DNA from: Catenaria anguillulae PL171
Lineage: Eukaryota > Blastocladiomycota > Blastocladiomycetes > Blastocladiales > Catenariaceae
Assembly (NCBI GenBank): GCA_002102555.1
Contig: MCFL01000036.1
Location: forward strand, 186,001-250,000
Reading direction: 5' to 3'
DNA: 64,000 bases
Made by a program: the position numbers and the translations under genes. Under the pieces are notes generated by a model. It ran no database searches and was not told the origin of the DNA. It saw nothing but the letters and a program-made list of their open reading frames with translations. Shown here piece after piece: positions 15,180 through 25,670 of the stretch; within the stretch, counting starts at the first letter, position 1; each line of letters starts with the position of its first letter.

Positions 15180-17050
15180 TTACTCAAACAGCGGGTGCTT
15201 GACGGCATTCTCAATGTAATGCAGCACGGCCGGCAAGATTTCCTCGCCCGTGGGGATGATTTCTACAACAGAAAAACAGCAAGGTCAGTCAGATTGTGGT
15301 AAAGATTCGATAAATGTCGCGAAACGACGGACCCTTCTTGTCAAGCACAAACCCAGGACCCCACCATTCAGGGCTCGGACGCAGCTCAATGGTCTAAATC
15401 AATCCGAAGACAAAACAAAAAGTCAATAATGCAGTCCACGAAGCTTGCATTCAAGAAGTCGAACGGGAAACCACAACGTACAAATCCATAAGGACGGACA
15501 TACTTTGTGCCCTCGGGTGCCTTGCTCGCGACCGCGGATCCTTGGACGGGGAATTTCTGAATGTAAAAGTAGTCCGAAGCTGCACCCGTGGTCGCATACA
15601 AGTCAATGCTCTTTTCGCTCACGTAGCGCTTGCCATGAACCTTCTTGATGATCTTTGCAATCTCGTCGCCAACTTGCTTGTGCTGCTTCTCGTGCGGGCT
15701 ATCTTTACGGTCCCAGCCAATGGGGCGCAGAATTAGTTGCGAGTACGAGTGCAAGTCGAGGCCAGCAACCGTGCGCGGGTGCGAGTTGAAGAAGGCTTGC
15801 AGTGCTTGGACTTCGGGCTCGGACGCAACCGAGGGGCCCTTGTACGTGTCCGAGTACGGGAACGAGGAGGAGCCACCGTGGCCCCAGTTGGCGTCATAGT
15901 TGCGGTTGAGGTCCTATCATGCATGGCCGGCAACCATTATTTAGTGACCAGTCGAGGAGGCATTGGCAGGCGAGGGCAACGAGACATACCACGCCAAAGG
16001 CACCGTTGCCGTTGTCCCTGCGGTTCTTGCGCCACAGGCGGTCGTGCTCCCAAGTGTACACGTATCCGTCGGGGTTCACAACAGGAACTACAATGATCTC
16101 GGTCTCGTCCAAAATGGAAGTGATGCGCTCGTCGGTCGACGTGAGGAGGTTGTACGTAATGTATTGGGTCGTTGCGTCTGCGAAACACCTTGCGAGTCAG
16201 CCATGAAGGCATCGAGAACCATGAAAACAGAGAGCGAAAACAAGAGCATACGCGAGATCCATTCGCGAGCGTGAATACCACCCTGAATGTAGACTTGCTT
16301 CTTTTGATCGAGCGGAGTGGTCGAGTTGACATTGGTGATGTGCAAGGCAACTTGATTGCGGCCCTCGTGCGTGGTGCCAATTTTTGGCAAGTACTTGAGG
16401 ACACGCTCAGGGTGCTGGGCCGCGAGTTCTAGATATAAAGCGAAGCAGGGCAACAGCAATCATTGGCGTGAGAACCGGGTGATCAGGAGAACAGTGCAAG
16501 ATGACCTACCCTTGTACCACGCAATCACGTCATCAAATGGATGATACTCTGAAAACCACACTTGCGGCTCCTTGACGAGCTGCTTGATGCTCTTGTTGGC
16601 CAAGAGCTGCACGCGCGACGCGCGCGATGCCCGCTCGGGCGCCAAAATCTCCTGCTCCACGTCCTTGACGAGCACGGTGGCTTGGACGCCGCCAGACCCC
16701 AAGTACCGCGAAACAACCTCGGGCAAGTCGTCGCGAGCCGTGCGCACCACGATGGCGCCAGAGTCTGGGTCAGCAGACCATACGTCGACGCCGGCAAGGT
16801 CCGAGACGAGTTGGGAGAGTGGCGAAGCCAGGACGCGCGAGTGGGGTGTGAGGCGAAGCACTTGATCGCGCTGGTGTTGGCGCGACGTTGTGGACGAAGG
16901 CCGCGACGCGCCGCCGTCTTTGTGCACGGACCAGTGGTGCTTGGGCGAGGCAGAAAAGATGTCTGGGTACGGGAAAGTCGGGGCGGCGTGCGCCGACAGG
17001 TTGGCCGAGGCGGCGAGCAGGCCAACGGCCAGAAGCGTGAGAAGATGCAT
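15180..17050 (-). CDS. Secreted zinc carboxypeptidase (M14, carboxypeptidase A type)
   Basis: Secreted metallo-exopeptidase with an N-terminal activation peptide, ~487 aa. Six exons: 16510-17050, 16252-16428, 15990-16177, 15500-15913, 15334-15393, 15180-15262. A signal peptide (MHLLTLLAVGLLAASANL) and propeptide occupy about residues 1-150. Zinc and catalytic residues: HAREW (His~232, Glu~235) in exon 2, VVPVVNPDGYVYTW, VDLNRNYDANWG across the exon 3/4 junction, GLDLHSYSQLILRPIGW (third zinc ligand His), and TIELRPSPEWW with the catalytic Glu. The last two introns have the unusual donor GTCCGT. Exon 5 is 60 nt where phase requires 61: one base is missing at the CCC of 15360-15362, within EWW/GPGFVLDKK. 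Without it the C-terminus is misread. Confidence 0.88.
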
Positions 17051-17186: not shown

Positions 17187-18190
17187 GGGACGGTGGCCTG
17201 TGGACGGGAACGGGGTTGTCGGGGGCCAGGGCTAAAGAAAGCCACATGACGGAATCGGTCCATCCGTCCATCCACGACACTCTTTTGTTCCGCTGGCCGG
17301 CATGTCATTGGCGACCAAAGGCACGCAATCCGACGCGTCGATCTCGATCACCACTTGGCCTCTGCATAAGCTTGCAGATCACGCGTTGCTTCTGCCTGCT
17401 TTCGATCCGGAGCTTTGGCCGACGCTGACGACGTGCATTATCGTTGCCATGCATGCTCACCAGTTGAACAATGATGGCATAAGCTCGTGCCAGGGTGAGA
17501 GCAGGCATGCCTAGATCGGGACATAAGTACCTACGAAATTCTACTGTATACGCACGAAGACGTTGGTATTCACTCGTTGCTGTTCCGGCTTTGATTGGCA
17601 ACGGAATCCCCGCGAATGGTCTGATCTGGGACGCCAACGTATCAAGGCATTTGCCGCGAATCGACACTTTCCAACAATACCGCTGACTCACCGGCCGCCC
17701 AAGAACGAATCAGGACATGTAGATCTGTCGTGAGCGACCGAAAGCGCAGTCAGCCCGCTGAACAAGTTGTCTGATCAATAGTGACGAAGCGGCTGGCGGC
17801 TTACTGCGGTAAGCTGCGTTTCGTCTTTCATGGAGCAGTATTACTCTTCCACTACTTTGGGCAACTTACACTTGAAACGATGGACCCATGACATGTCTTT
17901 TCCTCGTGCCGCAAGTTCAAAATGTCTGCGTGCGGCGTGACGCGAAAGCATGGACAGAATGACGCGTGCCATCGTCACTTGGTGCGGACACAATGCGTTT
18001 GGCATTGCGGTTCTCTCGTTCCCCGCAACAGTCTTGAGTGTAGAGTCGTAACCGCTGCTTGACCGCAGTCCGTTTGCTTGGCCCTTACGACGAGTCTACG
18101 GGCGATCCGCCCAAGTCAAGCTCGAGAATCGCCTTTGGGACAAGTGGGACGTCCCTGGCCGAGTCTCACACGAGCAGGGCGTCCAATACC

Positions 18191-18197
18191 ATAAATA
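18191..18197 (+). promoter_or_regulatory. TATA-like box of the tandem-repeat gene
   Basis: ATAAATA about 112 bp upstream of the tandem-repeat protein start, followed by a C/A-rich leader. Plausible core promoter element. Confidence 0.4.
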
Positions 18198-18308: not shown

Positions 18309-19880
18309 ATGTCCTCTGCTGCCATCCTCAACCTTCAACAAGTCAACCAAGCCGTTGGCAACAACATTCGCCAATCCCAGAACGCCGATGTGGACGTGAT
18401 CGCTGCCACCTCTGGCCACTCGCACTGGGGCTATCATCCCGCACACCATGGCGGCAACGTGCAAACCAACGTGGTCCAGCAGAATGCTGCCAGCGGCAAC
18501 AACATAACCAAGTCCAAAATGCCGACGTCGACGTCACGGCCATCACTTCCGGGTGGGGCCATTTGCACCACGGAGGCAACGTTCAAACCAATGTCATTCA
18601 GCAGAACGCGGCGAGCGGTAACAACATTGGCCAGTTCCAGAACGCCGATGTCGACGTCGTTGCAGTCAACTCTGGCCATTGGGGCTACCATCCGGCCCAC
18701 CACGGCGGTAACGTACAGACCAACATTGGTCAATTCAACCAAGCCAGTGGCAACAACATTCAGCAAGCACAAAACGCCGACGTGGACGTCACGGCCATCA
18801 CGTCTGGCTGGGGCCATTTGCACCACGGTGGAACGTACAGACCAACGTTGGCCAGTTCAACCAGGCGAGCGGTAACAACATTGGCCAATTCCAGAACGCC
18901 GACGTCGACGTGGTTGCCGTCAACACTGGTCATTCGCATTGGGGCATGCCGGCAATGTCCAAACCAACGTCGGCCAATTCAACCAAGCCAGTGGCAACAA
19001 CATCCAGCAGGCGCAGAATGCCGATGTCGACGTTACGGCCATTACATCGGGCTGGGGCCATTTGCACCACGGAGGCAACGTGCAGACCAACGTCATTCAG
19101 CAAAACGCAGCGAGCGGCAACAACATCAACCAATTCCAAAACGCCGACGTCGATGTCGTTGCCGTCAACACTGGCTACTGGGGCTACCACCCGGCCCACC
19201 ACGGCGGCAACGTACAGACCAACGTTGGTCAGTTCAACCAAGCCAGTGGCAACAATATCCAGCAGGCGCAGAACGCAGACGTGGACGTGACTGCATTCAC
19301 GGGCGGGTGGGGCAACTTGCACCACGGCGGCGGCAACGTGCAGACCAATGTCACGCAAGTCAACCAGGCGAGCGGGAACAACATTACTCAATTCCAGAAC
19401 GCCGATGTCGACGTTGTCGCCATTGGCCGGTCGTTCGGGTGGGGCCGCTTGGAGGATGGCGGCGCGCAATCGACCACCGTTGCTGACGCCGGAACATTGG
19501 CTCAAGGCCAAACAGGGACCGAAACAAGTGACGCGTTTGCGCAAATGTCGACGTTTGCCGAGGACGTGGTGACCACCGTCATGCAAGCCAACCAGGCCGC
19601 AGGTGACGGCATTGCGCAGGTGCAAAGTGCCGATGTGGATGTGCTCAACGCTATGAACACGTTTGCGGATGCTGGCGATGCAGCCCAGTGGACCATGCAG
19701 TCGGCGACCATGCAGACGAGTAATGGCGAAGGCGTAGTGAATGTGACTTATGCGTCGTCTGAGGTGCCCGAGGTCATGTCGTTCACGGTGCCGTGTAAGT
19801 CTTTCAGGTGGTTGCGCGCAGAGGTGGTGAGGTGCGAACAGTCCCGTGTACATACTCGTTGTTGTCGTTGTGGTACTTGA
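18309..19880 (+). CDS. Asn/Gln-rich tandem-repeat protein (curlin-like pattern)
   Basis: About 520 aa of nearly identical repeats, no signal peptide or TM helix seen. Each unit of ~40-45 residues follows GGNVQTNVxQxNxASGNNI, then xQxQNADVDV and a variable link. Two link types alternate: a His/Trp-rich one (SGHWGYHPAHHGG) and a shorter one (SGWGHLHHGG). About nine good copies and one decayed copy (VQSADVDVLNAMN) are seen, then a non-repeated tail. The regular Q-x-N-x-A...N...Q spacing resembles bacterial curlin repeats and suggests a beta-solenoid or amyloid-like fibre; this is inference. Three single-base deficits (18508-18509; between 18831 and 18832; 18941-18944) shift the frame, and together they cancel. 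The 3' end is uncertain: a GTAAGT at 19797 could begin a last intron. Confidence 0.7.
18350..19430 (+). repeat. Coding tandem repeat, ~125-nt unit, ~250-nt dimer
   Basis: DNA encoding QNADVDV recurs about every 118-136 nt from ~18380 to ~19400. The two alternating spacer types make a dimer of about 240-260 nt. Copies are highly similar at the DNA level, so unequal exchange is likely. Confidence 0.85.
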
Positions 19881-20140
19881 ACCTGGGCAATTACCACTTT
19901 TGGCTGTCGTTGCTGAAACCTCTCTGGCACAAAATGTAAATACGATTTTCCCTCTCATCTCAATTGCTTGCGGCGACTAGTCAATCTCACAGGGCAATCA
20001 TAGGCAGCGGCAGCTCAGGCAACCATGACCACCCTGAACAAATCATTCACTGGAATAGCAAAACATAACAATGTACAGTATCCAATGCACGTGCATTCCA
20101 AGTCGATGCAACCCATGCACAAGTCCCCGGCAACACCACC

Positions 20141-22373
20141 ATGCTCACCGAAGACCTCGTCCTCGCCATCCTCACCACAGCCTTGCGCCTCCGCTTCCCA
20201 TTTGTGCACTCGCGCTCGTTTGGCTGCCGCATGCGAGTTGCCGATGCTACAGCAGCACTCGTTCCGGTCCTCAACGTTGTGCCTCGTTCAATCTGCCCCG
20301 AGCTAACGCATCTGACACTCATGCTCATGCCATGGATCGATTCCGACGTGGCTGCTCGCCTGGGCGACATTTGGCTGTTGGATACTCTGCACACAAAGCT
20401 CACGTGCCCGCCGTGGAATCGGCCCGTGCAGTACACGCTACCAAAAGCATTGAGTGAGCGGGCGCTCATGGGCATGGTCATGTTCTGGATTGGTGGAGAT
20501 GTATGTTGGGTTACCGTACGGGACGACTTGGAGGGTGTGGTGGACGGCGCGTGCGCCAACGGGCACGTCATCGTGGTTGAGTGGTGGGCACGGCGAGGCA
20601 AGGCGCTGGATGACTTGTGCGAGGGGAGTGCGGCTGATTTGCTGAACGTGGCGGCCGTGGCGGGTCATTTGGATGTTGTGGCGGCGTTGTGGCACTTGGC
20701 AAGCGAGCAAGGATGCTTGCGGCTTCTCGATGGGCATGCGACCCTGGCGCGAGTCATTTTGGCTGATCGGATACATGTTCTGGAATGGGTTTTGGATCAG
20801 GTCGAGGGTAGCGGCATTGGAATCAGTGAGTCTGAAGTGACAGGCGCATTCATGGCTGCGGCCGCCGTGGGCCATCAGCAAGCATTGCAAGTCTTGCTGG
20901 ATCGATTTGGGGCGGCGCTCTTCACGCCGGCCGTTGCCGCGTTTGCCTGTGCCGGCGGATCCGTCACATTTGTGGAATGGTGTGCATCCAAAGTCGAGGC
21001 AAATGCAACCGTGGCTATCTTCATTCCCCTGCAACTATTACATTGCGTCGGCATGTGGCCATGTGCACATTCTTGACTGGTTGCGCTCAAACAAGGTTCA
21101 AGTGAAGGCCTTTCCATGTGCCGAATACTTGCAAGTTGGGTGGATTGGTGCGTCATGGAATGCGAGCGTTCGAGGCATTGTCTGCATTACTCCAGTCGGT
21201 CGCTTCCCATGATCTCTTGTCGTTGCATCCTCACCTGTGCGCGTGTGCTGCCGGGCACGTTGCTGTTGTTGACTGGTGGTTCGCCTTGTTTGTGAAAGAA
21301 ACACGACCGACCAGTATGCAAGTGTCATGCGTCAAGGTGGGCTCATGCAAGCGACGTGGCGAGCAAGCACGGGCAAGTGTGCATTCTCGATTGGCTCCAT
21401 GTACATCCTGAGCTGCTTGTGGTTTCTCCCAGCGCTTGTTACTCTGGCTTGCAGCACGCGACGGACCATGGCCATGTGGCCTGTTTGGACTGGTGGAAAG
21501 CAAAGTGCGAGCTCACAGGCACGAACATGTATTTCACAACAACGACAGTCCAAGTCTGTCGGGCATTTCTCTGGCCAACGCGGTGAAGCGCGGCCATCAT
21601 CAAGCGCTTGTTTGGTGGTTCCGAAATTGGTCCCAGCAGCCGGGTGGACAATGGCCGACCTGGAGGTACCTGGCATCTGTGCGATTGCGTGAGGTTGATT
21701 AGGGACTCAATTGCGCAGCAGCAGCATGAACTACCAGTGGCGGCCGAGGTCACTCATTTGTTGGGCATGGATTCGGCACTTGACAATCATCTGCCATCAC
21801 GCGTTACCAACCGAATCTCGAGCCAGTTGCTTGGCGAATGTTCAGCCTGTGCCAAGTGGATGTACTTGATTGGATTCTGGGGCACAAGTCGTTGCTTGAG
21901 CACTTGTCATACGGGCGAGGTGCATTGTACATGGACGCCAGTGCCGGTGCCATGTTTGACACGCTCATGTGGTGGATGCAATCGGGACTGGACCTTGGCT
22001 GCTGCAAGATCAAGTCATGGAGTGGATGGAATGGGATCTCGCGGCAACGAGAAACACCTTGTTTTTGGATGCATGCAACAAGGTTGGAATTGTGACGGGT
22101 CCAATTGATTTGGATCGTGTGCTGCCAAAGCTCAACATTCCAGTATTGGAGTGGGCCGTTAAATATTCCCACATGGAGATCAAGTACACGGAAACGGCAC
22201 TTGAAGACGTGACACTCGACGGGCGTGTGCTCGTGCTGGAATGGTGGAAAAAGTCGGGGCTGCCAATCAAGCTTTCGGCAGAGGTACTGGAGAGAGATTA
22301 TTGCGACGATGCAGGTGTCATTGAGTGGTGGATCAAGTCTGGACTCTTGCCTGGCCAGAGGGGCGATTTGTGA
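20141..22373 (+). pseudogene. VLDWW-repeat (ankyrin-like) gene broken by many frameshifts
   Basis: Related to the gene at 38792-40809. The first ~300 residues are open from the ATG at 20141 and begin with an F-box-like helix region (MLTEDLVLAILTTALRLRF), then ankyrin-like repeats with a G-H-x-x-V-L-x-W-W signature (GHVIVVEWWARRG; HVLEWVLDQ). After ~21040 the coding trace hops frames about seven times, in both directions (pieces with GHVHILDWLRSN, GHVAVVDWW, GQVCILDWLHVHPE, GHVACLDWW, VDVLDWILGHK, GRVLVLEWWKKSG). It ends at the stop at 22371-22373. No set of introns explains the hops. A decaying pseudogene is most likely; dense sequence error is the alternative. Confidence 0.6.
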
Positions 22374-22790
22374 GTGTGTGATGAGTGTGAGGGAAACGGG
22401 CCGCGCACCATACCATGAAGCCCATGAAGCACCCGTCATCCTGTAGGGACGACTTGGTCTCGACTTGTGTGTGATTTTCAATTCAACAACTTTCGTATCA
22501 TTGCAGTGCGTCGAGATTTCTGTGAAGGGAATGAGTCACGGCCGCACGTGTGGGTTTGCTTGTGAGGGTTGGCGACGGGTCCGATCGGTGGGATCGGAGT
22601 GGCAGATCGCCGATCACGAACGATGCACGCCCTGCGATGCGATGCGTTGGAGTCATCTGTGCAAACAAATGTTTTTCTGCTCACTTTGAATGTTTGAACA
22701 GGTAGGAGAGTGAAAATTACAGATTTAAACCGAATTAAGGACATAAGTACGGACCACTACCCTCTGAAACCGCTCAATACACTGCCAATC
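22374..22790. other. Intergenic (PFK-2/FBPase-2 promoter region)
   Basis: About 420 bp upstream of the bifunctional enzyme gene. No gene or clear motif seen. Confidence 0.5.
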
Positions 22791-25670
22791 ATGGACTCTG
22801 AGCCCACCATCCGCCTCACGTGCACGACGCCCATCCCCATTTACAACCCTGGCGAATCGCAGTTGCACTCGCATTCGCATTCGCAGGCACACTCGCCCAT
22901 CAGCAGCAACAGCCATTCGCCCTCGCAAAGGCCTGCCAGTGCCAGTGATCCCCCTTCTGTGTCCAATTCCAGCGATATGCTGCAGCACCCGCCTCCCTCC
23001 CTACCGCGCGTGCCCTCGGGCATCTCGCTCGTCCTGCCAACGCACCACCTCTCGTCGCACGCGGCTGCAGGCTCGTCCTACGCCTCTCACGCAGCCGCCC
23101 TCGGCATTCATCGCACGCCCTCGCCCTTGCTGCAGCACCACCATCATCTGTACTTGTCGTCGTCACCCTCCAATTCGGCGCACAGCCACCATTTCCCGTC
23201 GCCCCTCAGTGCCAGCACCAGTGCCAACTTGTGGCAAAATCACCACGATGCAGCCGTCGACAGTCCGGGCATTGATGAGGGAGAAGACGGCGGCCTTGGT
23301 GTTGAGCTGCATCATCATCAGCATCCGTGGAAATCGTTATCAGCTTTGCCGAGTTCAGCCAATCAGCAGCAGCATGCAACGCCAACTGCATCCTCTCCAA
23401 GCGCAAATCCAAATCGCGCTCGCTACGCGTCGGTGCCATCACGTCCCATCGCAATCTCAACCAACACGTCTTCTTCTTCTTCTTCTTCTTCTTCTTCCTC
23501 CCACCCTCACTCGCAACAATCTACCCCGCATCTGGTGACTGGCTTTGCCCCAACGGCTTCTGGTATGTTCGCATGCATATGTCTCTCTGTGTATCATATC
23601 TTCCGATCCGTCCTCATGCAATCTCATTCAATCTGGACCCCTATCATAGCCTCCCCAACAACCGCCATTCCCGCGCCCACGTCGTCCGCCCACCTCATCA
23701 TCTTTATGGTGGGCCTTCCCGCACGCGGCAAATCCTACATTTCACAAAAGCTCGTCCGGTACCTGACATGGCTCGGGTATCACACCAAAGTGTTCAATGT
23801 GGGCAACCGCCGACGCACCGTTGCTACAACGACCGACACGCCTTCCTCTCCCGACACGCCCAAAGTGGCCGGCCAGGGCGCAACAAGCACGTTTTTTGAT
23901 CCCACAAACACGAGCGCCGCAACGTTGCGTGACCAGCTGGCGCTCGACACGCTCGACGAACTGATTGACTGGCTTCACGCCAACGGCAATGGCAGTGGTA
24001 ACAATGGCAATGGCAATGGCAATGGCAATGGCAATGGCAATGGCAATGTGCTGCCCACCGCGACCAATGGCGGCCCACGCATTGCCATTCACGACGCAAC
24101 CAACTCGACGCGTGCGCGCCGCCACTTGCTCATTTCGCGCTTGAAGGCGCGCCTCCTTGCTTCCGAAACGGCTTGCTCTCCACACCAGCCGCGCATCAAG
24201 TTTATGTTTCTCGAGTCTGTGTGCACCGACCCGCAAGTGATTCAAGCCAATGTGCGCATGAAGTTGCAGTCGCCCGATTATCGCAACACTCCCGCCGACG
24301 TGGCATTGGCGGATTTCACGCAGCGCATGCGCAACTACGAGCGAGCGTACCAGCCGCTGGGCACATACGAGGACCAGCACAAGTGGCCGTATGTCAAGCT
24401 GGTGGATGTGGGCAGAAAGGTGGAGGTGAGTGGATTGCGTGGGTATTTGATGAGTCAGGTGGTGTTTTACTTGATGAATATCAACATTCGGTATGTCGTC
24501 GGAATCGCTGTCCTTTTCTTGTTCTTCTCGTGTTTCAGTGTGTGTGGACCTCACACTCATGTTTGTGTTTGTGTGTTTGCTAGGCATCGCACCATTTGGC
24601 TCACGCGCCACGGCGAATCCTCGTCCAATGTGGCCGGTCGCATTGGCGGCGACGCCACACTGACGGACCGGGGCCAGCGGTACGCCAATGCCCTTGCGCG
24701 CTTCTTTGCAAAAGTGTATGGCGGTGGGGCAGCGTGTGCGCCAAGGTTTGATTCGGCGCAGCCCGGACGCAAGCACAGTGTGGGTGCCGAGGCGATTACC
24801 AAGCGGACACGGTTTGGGACCGCAGTGGGGTGTGCGACACCTGTGCCTGGTGGCGGCCATGACCAAGGCAAGGGAAACGCAAGCGAGGAAGCGGCGAAGG
24901 CCGTAGAGAGGCAAGTCGAGTCTACAGAAGAGGAAGAGGAAGAGGATGAAGAAGAGTACGAGTCTTCGGACGGGGACTATCAGGTCGACGACGTGACCCC
25001 ACCGGCATCGCCGTCGCCAACGTTACCGCTCGACCCAACACCTCCTGTGGCTTCAACACCCCAACAAACACGTGTAAGTGGTAAACGCCGCGCCCTGCCG
25101 CGCATTCCCATCTGGACATCCACTCTGCGGCGAGCTGTCGCCACTGGCTTGCCCATCGCCTCGACCCTGCCGCATCGTATGCCCCTACGCACCCTACGTA
25201 TCCTCAACGAAATCCATTCTGGTGCATTTGAAAACTTGACGCCACTGGAAATCGAAGCCGGGTTTCCCGGTGAAGTGGCCCGGCGCCAAGCCGACAAGCT
25301 GGCCTATCGGTACCCAGGCCTGGGCGGCGAGTCGTACTTGGACGTGATTGCGCGCCTCAAGCCCATGATTGTGGAAACGGAACGCATCACGCGGGATGTG
25401 TGCATTGTGACGCACAATGTGGTGGCAAGGATCATGATGGCGTATTGGTTGGGGGTACCCTGGGAGGACATGCCCAGGTTGGAGGTGCCGTTGGGCGAGG
25501 TGTATGCGATGCAGCCGAGGCCCTATGGGACCGAGGTGGTCCGGTTCCGGTGGGATGAGGAACGGGATGAGATCGTGAGGGTCGATGAGGAGGCGGACGA
25601 GCAGGAGAGGGACGAGGAGGGGCAAGGCGAGGGAGAGCAAGCGAGGCAGAGGGGGGAGAGAATTGAGTGA
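22791..25670 (+). CDS. 6-phosphofructo-2-kinase / fructose-2,6-bisphosphatase
   Basis: Bifunctional enzyme that makes and degrades fructose 2,6-bisphosphate, the regulator of glycolysis. About 899 aa in three exons (22791-23562, 23650-24490, 24584-25670; both donors GTATGT). Residues 1-260 are low-complexity Ser/His/Pro (potential regulatory tail). The kinase domain has Walker A GLPARGKSYISQKLVRYL (~279) and FNVGNRRR, and later ALADFTQRMRNYERAY. The phosphatase domain has RHGESSSN (phospho-His ~547), IWTSTLRRAVATG, LNEIHSGAFENL and the second His in THNVVARIMMAYWLG (~814), so both catalytic His are present. An acidic, low-complexity insert of ~130 residues sits between RHGE and IWTS. A (Gly-Asn) repeat from (AATGGC)n interrupts the kinase domain. 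The N-terminal ATG at 22791 is the first in frame. Confidence 0.9.
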   Translation: MDSEPTIRLTCTTPIPIYNPGESQLHSHSHSQAHSPISSNSHSPSQRPASASDPPSVSNSSDMLQHPPPSLPRVPSGISLVLPTHHLSSHAAAGSSYASHAAALGIHRTPSPLLQHHHHLYLSSSPSNSAHSHHFPSPLSASTSANLWQNHHDAAVDSPGIDEGEDGGLGVELHHHQHPWKSLSALPSSANQQQHATPTASSPSANPNRARYASVPSRPIAISTNTSSSSSSSSSSSHPHSQQSTPHLVTGFAPTASGMFACICLSVYHIFRSVLMQSHSIWTPIIASPTTAIPAPTSSAHLIIFMVGLPARGKSYISQKLVRYLTWLGYHTKVFNVGNRRRTVATTTDTPSSPDTPKVAGQGATSTFFDPTNTSAATLRDQLALDTLDELIDWLHANGNGSGNNGNGNGNGNGNGNGNVLPTATNGGPRIAIHDATNSTRARRHLLISRLKARLLASETACSPHQPRIKFMFLESVCTDPQVIQANVRMKLQSPDYRNTPADVALADFTQRMRNYERAYQPLGTYEDQHKWPYVKLVDVGRKVEVSGLRGYLMSQVVFYLMNINIRYVVGIAVLFLFFSCFSVCGPHTHVCVCVFARHRTIWLTRHGESSSNVAGRIGGDATLTDRGQRYANALARFFAKVYGGGAACAPRFDSAQPGRKHSVGAEAITKRTRFGTAVGCATPVPGGGHDQGKGNASEEAAKAVERQVESTEEEEEEDEEEYESSDGDYQVDDVTPPASPSPTLPLDPTPPVASTPQQTRVSGKRRALPRIPIWTSTLRRAVATGLPIASTLPHRMPLRTLRILNEIHSGAFENLTPLEIEAGFPGEVARRQADKLAYRYPGLGGESYLDVIARLKPMIVETERITRDVCIVTHNVVARIMMAYWLGVPWEDMPRLEVPLGEVYAMQPRPYGTEVVRFRWDEERDEIVRVDEEADEQERDEEGQGEGEQARQRGERIE
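23468..23500 (+). repeat. (TCT)n microsatellite encoding poly-Ser
   Basis: About ten TCT/TTC triplets in the N-terminal tail of the bifunctional enzyme gene, read as a Ser run. In-frame and coding. Confidence 0.85.
23995..24048 (+). repeat. (AATGGC)n hexanucleotide repeat encoding Asn-Gly
   Basis: An AATGGC/AATGGT-type hexamer repeat within the kinase domain of the bifunctional enzyme gene, encoding a Gly-Asn string between two conserved blocks. Likely length-variable. Confidence 0.85.

Follow-up and report, generated by a model that had tools for sequence, protein, structure and literature searches.

The repeat locus and its neighbours

The window, a stretch of 64,000 nucleotides from Catenaria anguillulae PL171 with a base composition of 57% GC, carries on its plus strand a gene built of ten repeat units (18309 to ~19799), in which two alternating His/Trp/Gly links create a double period of 255 bp. 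Tandem Repeats Finder (TRF) reported the repeat at 18360–19421 with a score of 1115 for 4.2 copies of a 255-bp period, and alternatively described it as a half unit of 122 bp in 7.7 copies. Upstream, on the minus strand, lies a probable zinc carboxypeptidase gene spread across several open stretches (15386–17047); its piece at 15386–15913 matches Peptidase_M14 (E 6.1e-26), and its piece at 16460–17047 has a hydrophobic N-terminus and gave no Pfam match. Downstream, on the plus strand, a neighbour gene extends over several frames (20069–22535; its piece at 20069–21076 matches ankyrin weakly, at E 0.0065 and short of the cut-off) and is followed by a 6-phosphofructo-2-kinase / histidine phosphatase gene in a single open frame (22698–25670; E 4e-63 and 3.4e-34).

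Three-frame translation located nine full repeat units by their GNN codons (at 18357, 18495, 18617, 18749, 18871, 18993, 19116, 19248 and 19374), spaced 122–138 bases or ~41–46 codons apart, and a degenerate tenth unit marked by SADVDV at 19626. The original prediction of about ten units of ~40–45 residues is confirmed, as are the two alternating His/Trp/Gly links that it described. The same prediction envisaged a single readable protein from 18309 to 19880, which could not be upheld. The gene contains three frame changes and hence is not one open frame: the starting frame (frame 0) reaches a stop at 18873–18875, and the units are read in frame 0 to ~18503, in frame 2 at ~18504–18830, in frame 1 at ~18830–18945, and then in frame 0 again.

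The features of the gene, all on the plus strand, begin with a TATA-like element (CATAAA, 18190–18195) located 119 bases upstream of a plausible start codon at 18309. A first open stretch (18309–18503) holds this start codon, unit 1 and the beginning of unit 2, a second in another frame (18504–18830, boundaries approximate) the remainder of unit 2 and units 3 and 4, and a third in the third frame (18830–18945, boundaries approximate) unit 5. The fourth (18948–19793) returns to the frame of the start codon and comprises units 6–9, the degenerate unit 10 and the C-terminal tail. The gene probably ends ~80 bases upstream of 19880, because the matching frame on sister contig C315 runs for 48 codons and meets its stop ~80 bases earlier; judged by this contig, the frame-0 extension at 19794–19880 is mostly non-coding.

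Comparison with C315 also bears on the nature of the frame breaks, although this contig begins inside the gene, so that the comparison covers the 3′ end and downstream sequence and not the three frame changes themselves. Over 4928 aligned bases, 17 one-base gaps fell in the window (14 of them within 20458–21997) and 4 in C315, and in five comparisons, which involved four other pairs of near-identical contigs, either side had 0–5 such gaps. Because one-base gaps are in such excess in the window, sequence error appears a likelier cause of the frame breaks than decay. That only the window copy has become a pseudogene, with the family functional elsewhere, is a rather unlikely alternative that could draw on the three frame changes and on the one other member (L011) that is broken as well, whereas the distribution of gaps between the window, C315 and the other pairs fits base-calling error.

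Family members, selection and relatives

Searching the genome with the last open piece of the window gene revealed at least 15 further loci, in addition to the 3′-end fragment on C315, so that the window locus is one of at least 16 family loci; searches of the genome with two diverged members added zero loci. All but one of the 15 further loci are open from end to end, L011 breaking after 323 codons, and members contain from 3 to 15 units. Five pairs on separate contigs are alike through gene and flanks (L009/L010, L015/L016, L018/L019, L020/L021 and L022/L023), the identity of their leading blocks being 95.6–97.6% in four pairs and 90–94% in L009/L010, where the unit number differs as well (15 versus 11). 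This contig pairing extends to other genes of the genome. If the near-identical contig pairs are taken as haplotypes, about 11 genes would be left. C335 and C301 are contigs that each carry two closely spaced members in opposite orientation. As to the identity of the genome, its rhodopsin-cyclase domain equals chain 6sir across all its 187 residues, bar one near the construct start, and the available text of PMC7384201 assigns this entry to Catenaria anguillulae.

Purifying selection was observed in eight of the nine pairs compared. Over whole alignments, dN/dS was 0.20 in L020/L021, 0.03 in L022/L023, 0.09 in L015/L016, 0.05 in L013/L014, 0.09 in L009/L010 and 0.15 in L011/L012 (the shifted tail of L011 included), and it was 0.19 in both L012/L014 and L014/L020, for which dS is near or above 1. 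The exception is L018/L019, in which dN/dS is 0.44 over the whole alignment and 1.01 within the cores, the latter calculated from few changes (4 synonymous and 13 nonsynonymous).

A hydrophobic N-terminus is absent from the window gene and from all 15 paralogs, as judged by 10-residue hydropathy only (maxima 0.48–1.15), in keeping with the predicted lack of a signal peptide; the window gene peaks at 0.98, versus 2.77 for the N-terminus of the carboxypeptidase gene in the window, which served as control. A TATA-like element lies 98–162 bases upstream of the start in the window gene and in 14 of the 15 paralogs (L011 has none), against a background of 119 among 5000 pieces of 120 bases drawn at random from the window, a contrast that is partly circular in that the patterns were chosen after inspection. 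Compared with long ORFs of the window, the family favours AAC (0.86 vs 0.63) and avoids GCA (0.07 vs 0.21), which weakly suggests high expression; isoleucine runs opposite (ATT 0.65, vs 0.30 in a translation-factor set), so that the overall codon bias is mixed, and both reference sets may contain false ORFs.

The family has so far been seen only in Catenaria anguillulae. Searches of a 5.8-billion protein set returned 7989, 7984 and 7418 candidates, with none at E ≤ 0.001, E ≤ 10 and E ≤ 1, respectively, and none of the pattern matches in viral contigs (90 and 105) or prokaryotic contigs (96) was confirmed, in collections that may contain few fungi and may omit the Catenaria genome. Among PDB sequences, L014 gave one match at E ≤ 10 (E 1.8), via a His tag. 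Scanning 14 paralogs against Pfam yielded 16 families at E ≤ 10, with PilN (2.8e-4, in 5 of 14) and DUF4062 (6.5e-4, in 1 of 14) as the best, and the four matches shown for the first member were under the curated cut-offs. NCBIfam matches, none of them shared by more than two of the 14, were to SDR oxidoreductase (9.3e-7), aspartate carbamoyltransferase (1.8e-5) and six further families. These mutually inconsistent matches were taken as composition artefacts. No convincing Pfam match was obtained and no known unrelated family emerged to which the unit could be assigned, in agreement with the earlier remark that no described fungal family is known to have it, and the family represents constrained genes outside Pfam and NCBIfam coverage. 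Among the matches listed for literature on Catenaria, Blastocladiomycota, fungal amyloid or curli, and zoospores, no published description of the family was found.

Repeat unit and predicted fold

The anatomy of the unit was derived from 129 units (136 before removal of 7 false anchors in L009/L010, which left the outcome unchanged), of which 81 are distinct and which form 41 clusters at 80%. They align without gaps over 31 positions, with Gly14 and Gln19 invariant, Asn10 and Ala12 each in 127 and Ile17 in 119 of the 129. The core of ~30 residues has the consensus D-V-Q-T-N-V-I-Q-A-N-Q-A-S-G-N-N-I-G-Q-F-Q-N-A-D-V-D-V-T-A. Unit spacing in the family is mostly 34–54 residues, and links are mostly 7–24 residues long, with a few much longer and some zero-length entries that stem mostly from the false anchors. 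The average identity between units of the same chain is 0.43–0.69 (lowered in L009/L010 by the false anchors), although some chains contain near-identical units (pairwise maxima of 0.97–1.00 in L009, L010, L015 and L016).

Cores and links differ in composition: outside the cores, His accounts for 391 and Trp for 94 of 2576 residues, against 44 and 2 of 3870 inside, and runs such as HHHHHHH occur in the family chains. Whole chains contain 0.3% Lys, 0.4% Arg and 6.1% Asp; L009, for example, has 53 Asp and Glu, 4 Lys and Arg, and 55 His. L018–L021 keep the core with only 17–19 His in 441–643 aa, which makes the core, and not His, the constant feature. Cys numbers 0–2 in 13 of 15 chains and 8–9 in L020/L021. 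Six of the 15 chains (L015, L016 and L020–L023) end in -GC, Cys being otherwise almost absent except in L020/L021. The latter two also carry long Gln-rich inserts between units in mid-gene; these copies apparently differ in length there, one Gln run of L021 far exceeding that of L020.

Conservation alternates from residue to residue along the unit. With the inferred inward face defined as even positions 2–12 and odd positions 17–29, a parity picked after inspection, information on the inward face exceeded that on the outward face by 0.98 bits (a difference reached in 43 of 20000 permutations), and charged residues were rare at inward positions (16 of 1677) compared with outward ones (312 of 1677).

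AlphaFold2 predicted a beta-solenoid for an intact paralog (pLDDT 81.2, pTM 0.84), with the His-rich links placed between turns. For the last five units of the window gene (model m9a905d1774c2) it predicted a beta-solenoid less confidently (mean pLDDT 69.6, pTM 0.73), 10-residue blocks in units 6–8 reaching pLDDT 92–93 and residues 240–282 falling under 50. The suggestion of a beta-solenoid is thus borne out at the level of models, and the ladder-less disorder that would have spoken against it was not obtained from a program that is itself biased towards solenoids. According to the available text of PMC11795689, AlphaFold2 over-predicts beta-solenoids for perfect repeats, and such unrealistic solenoids can hold internally stacked charges, which is why the rarity of inward charge matters here. 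Subject to this bias, the family likely adopts a two-sheet beta-solenoid with an alternating inward and outward pattern.

Foldseek found zero matches in the PDB at E ≤ 0.001 for either model, the nearest solved folds being SufB/SufD and curli CsgA. CsgA was the best PDB match of the paralog model (E 0.061, prob 0.04) and stood at rank 16 for the window-piece model (E 4.8). SufB and SufD function in iron-sulphur cluster assembly, and their core beta-helix (PDB 9a7k, 5awf, 2zu0, 1vh4) shares geometry only, at 5–12% identity; SufBD is absent among the 16 Pfam families matched by the 14 paralogs at E ≤ 10. FapC, a functional amyloid of Pseudomonas (PDB 9u4u, 9nqd; ranks 4 and 14), has repeats connected by links, as in the Catenaria family. 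In the viral library, the sole matches at E ≤ 0.001 were the Tetraselmis virus 1 proteins A0A2P0VMJ8, A0A2P0VMK3 and A0A2P0VNX5 (E 2.2e-4 to 7.0e-4, prob 0.72–1.00, TMq 0.23–0.45), which are uncharacterised, exist as predicted models only and share 12–14% identity. Tetraselmis virus 1 infects a green alga, and several of its uncharacterised proteins (A0A2P0VMK3 and relatives in BFVD) are predicted as similar solenoids.

Relation to curlin and a proposed mode of assembly

The original prediction had pointed to a curlin-like pattern, which stands as a likeness of fold, CsgA being among the nearest solved structures, and is not supported as sequence kinship. It remains very improbable, and mostly refuted, that the family is a diverged eukaryotic member of CsgA/CsgB transferred from bacteria: despite a similar Q-x-N / G-N-N / Q logic, the whole genome contains 0 candidates for Pfam curlin PF07012 at E ≤ 10, although the control was detected in E. 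coli and Haloferax (above cut-off in one of the two), and the Pfam scans of three window pieces and 14 paralogs gave no curlin match either. Aligned with hhalign against a profile of nine E. coli K-12 repeats, the units (a set that still contained the 7 false anchors) scored 8.4, a value reached by 48 of 200 column-shuffled profiles (mean 7.37) and hence at chance level. Moreover, CsgA repeats (PDB 8c50) are 22–23 residues apart, and the fungal family differs in its longer cores, in the link (mostly 7–24 residues) added to each turn and in lacking the hydrophobic N-terminus. Membership of PF07012 was therefore rejected, and we regard the resemblance as an analogy: the family may work like curlin, and a convergent curli-like fold is probable on the evidence of the models.

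In our best reading, to which we would give about even chances, the gene in the window belongs to a multigene family whose products are leaderless, self-assembling beta-solenoids. Each ~30-residue core would form one turn, with a first strand, a tight S-G-N-N turn and a second strand, and the variable His/Gly/Trp link would close the turn; because each link closes its turn, the links should line a single edge of a flat rod made of two sheets. The inward faces would carry Val, Ile and Ala together with Asn and Gln ladders, and Asp would point outward. By analogy, rods of varying turn number might then join at their ends into filaments, either cytoplasmic or released by a non-classical route, that serve as structural material. 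A structural rod or filament would be the most likely role because the core is retained although turn number varies among members and presumed alleles, as if exact length were of little importance. The His edge may tune assembly via pH (near 6) or a divalent metal, given that Lys and Arg are almost absent, which leaves His as the chief candidate for positive charge opposite Asp; the few His of L018–L021 for their length imply that such a switch cannot be general. A bolder form of this reading is tentative and clearly less likely: an independently evolved fungal intracellular functional amyloid, leaderless, with curli-like Asn/Gln ladders and a histidine-loop edge, whose cytoplasmic filaments would be switched by pH or metal and might occur in zoospores or resting spores.

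Two other explanations, both of them improbable in our estimation and to a similar degree, were weighed against self-assembly. The protein could be a beta-solenoid that stays soluble and does not assemble, its His-rich edge acting as a cytosolic buffer or store of metal (Zn/Ni/Cu), as the abundance of His outside the cores and its uninterrupted runs might suggest; L018–L021, however, are long and keep the core with few His, most chains have almost no Cys, and the Pfam scan of the paralogs found no metal-protein family. Alternatively, a flexible Asn/Gln/Gly/His-rich protein could form condensates or gels, the AlphaFold2 solenoid being an artefact of repetitiveness. The program's known bias (PMC11795689, available text), the biased composition and Foldseek E-values above 0.05 in the PDB would all agree with this, but such a protein would hardly explain why the inferred inward face bears so little charge, why conservation alternates and why units stay gap-free while links vary; the units of a chain are, moreover, too dissimilar to resemble the perfect repeats behind the bias.

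Suckerins and the histidine-rich proteins of squid beak offer a likeness to the self-assembling solenoid proposed here, in that beta-forming modules alternate with Gly/His-rich modules in a load-bearing material; they differ in being secreted animal proteins. Among the papers listed as joining functional amyloid, curli, beta-solenoids, eukaryotes and fungi, none concerns zoosporic fungi to judge by its title. If the fold holds, a fungus would have evolved curli-like stacking with Asn/Gln ladders while showing no detectable kinship in sequence with the curli of bacteria, and the family would be a candidate structural protein family of zoosporic fungi as well as a natural scaffold with a variable turn number and an addressable histidine edge.
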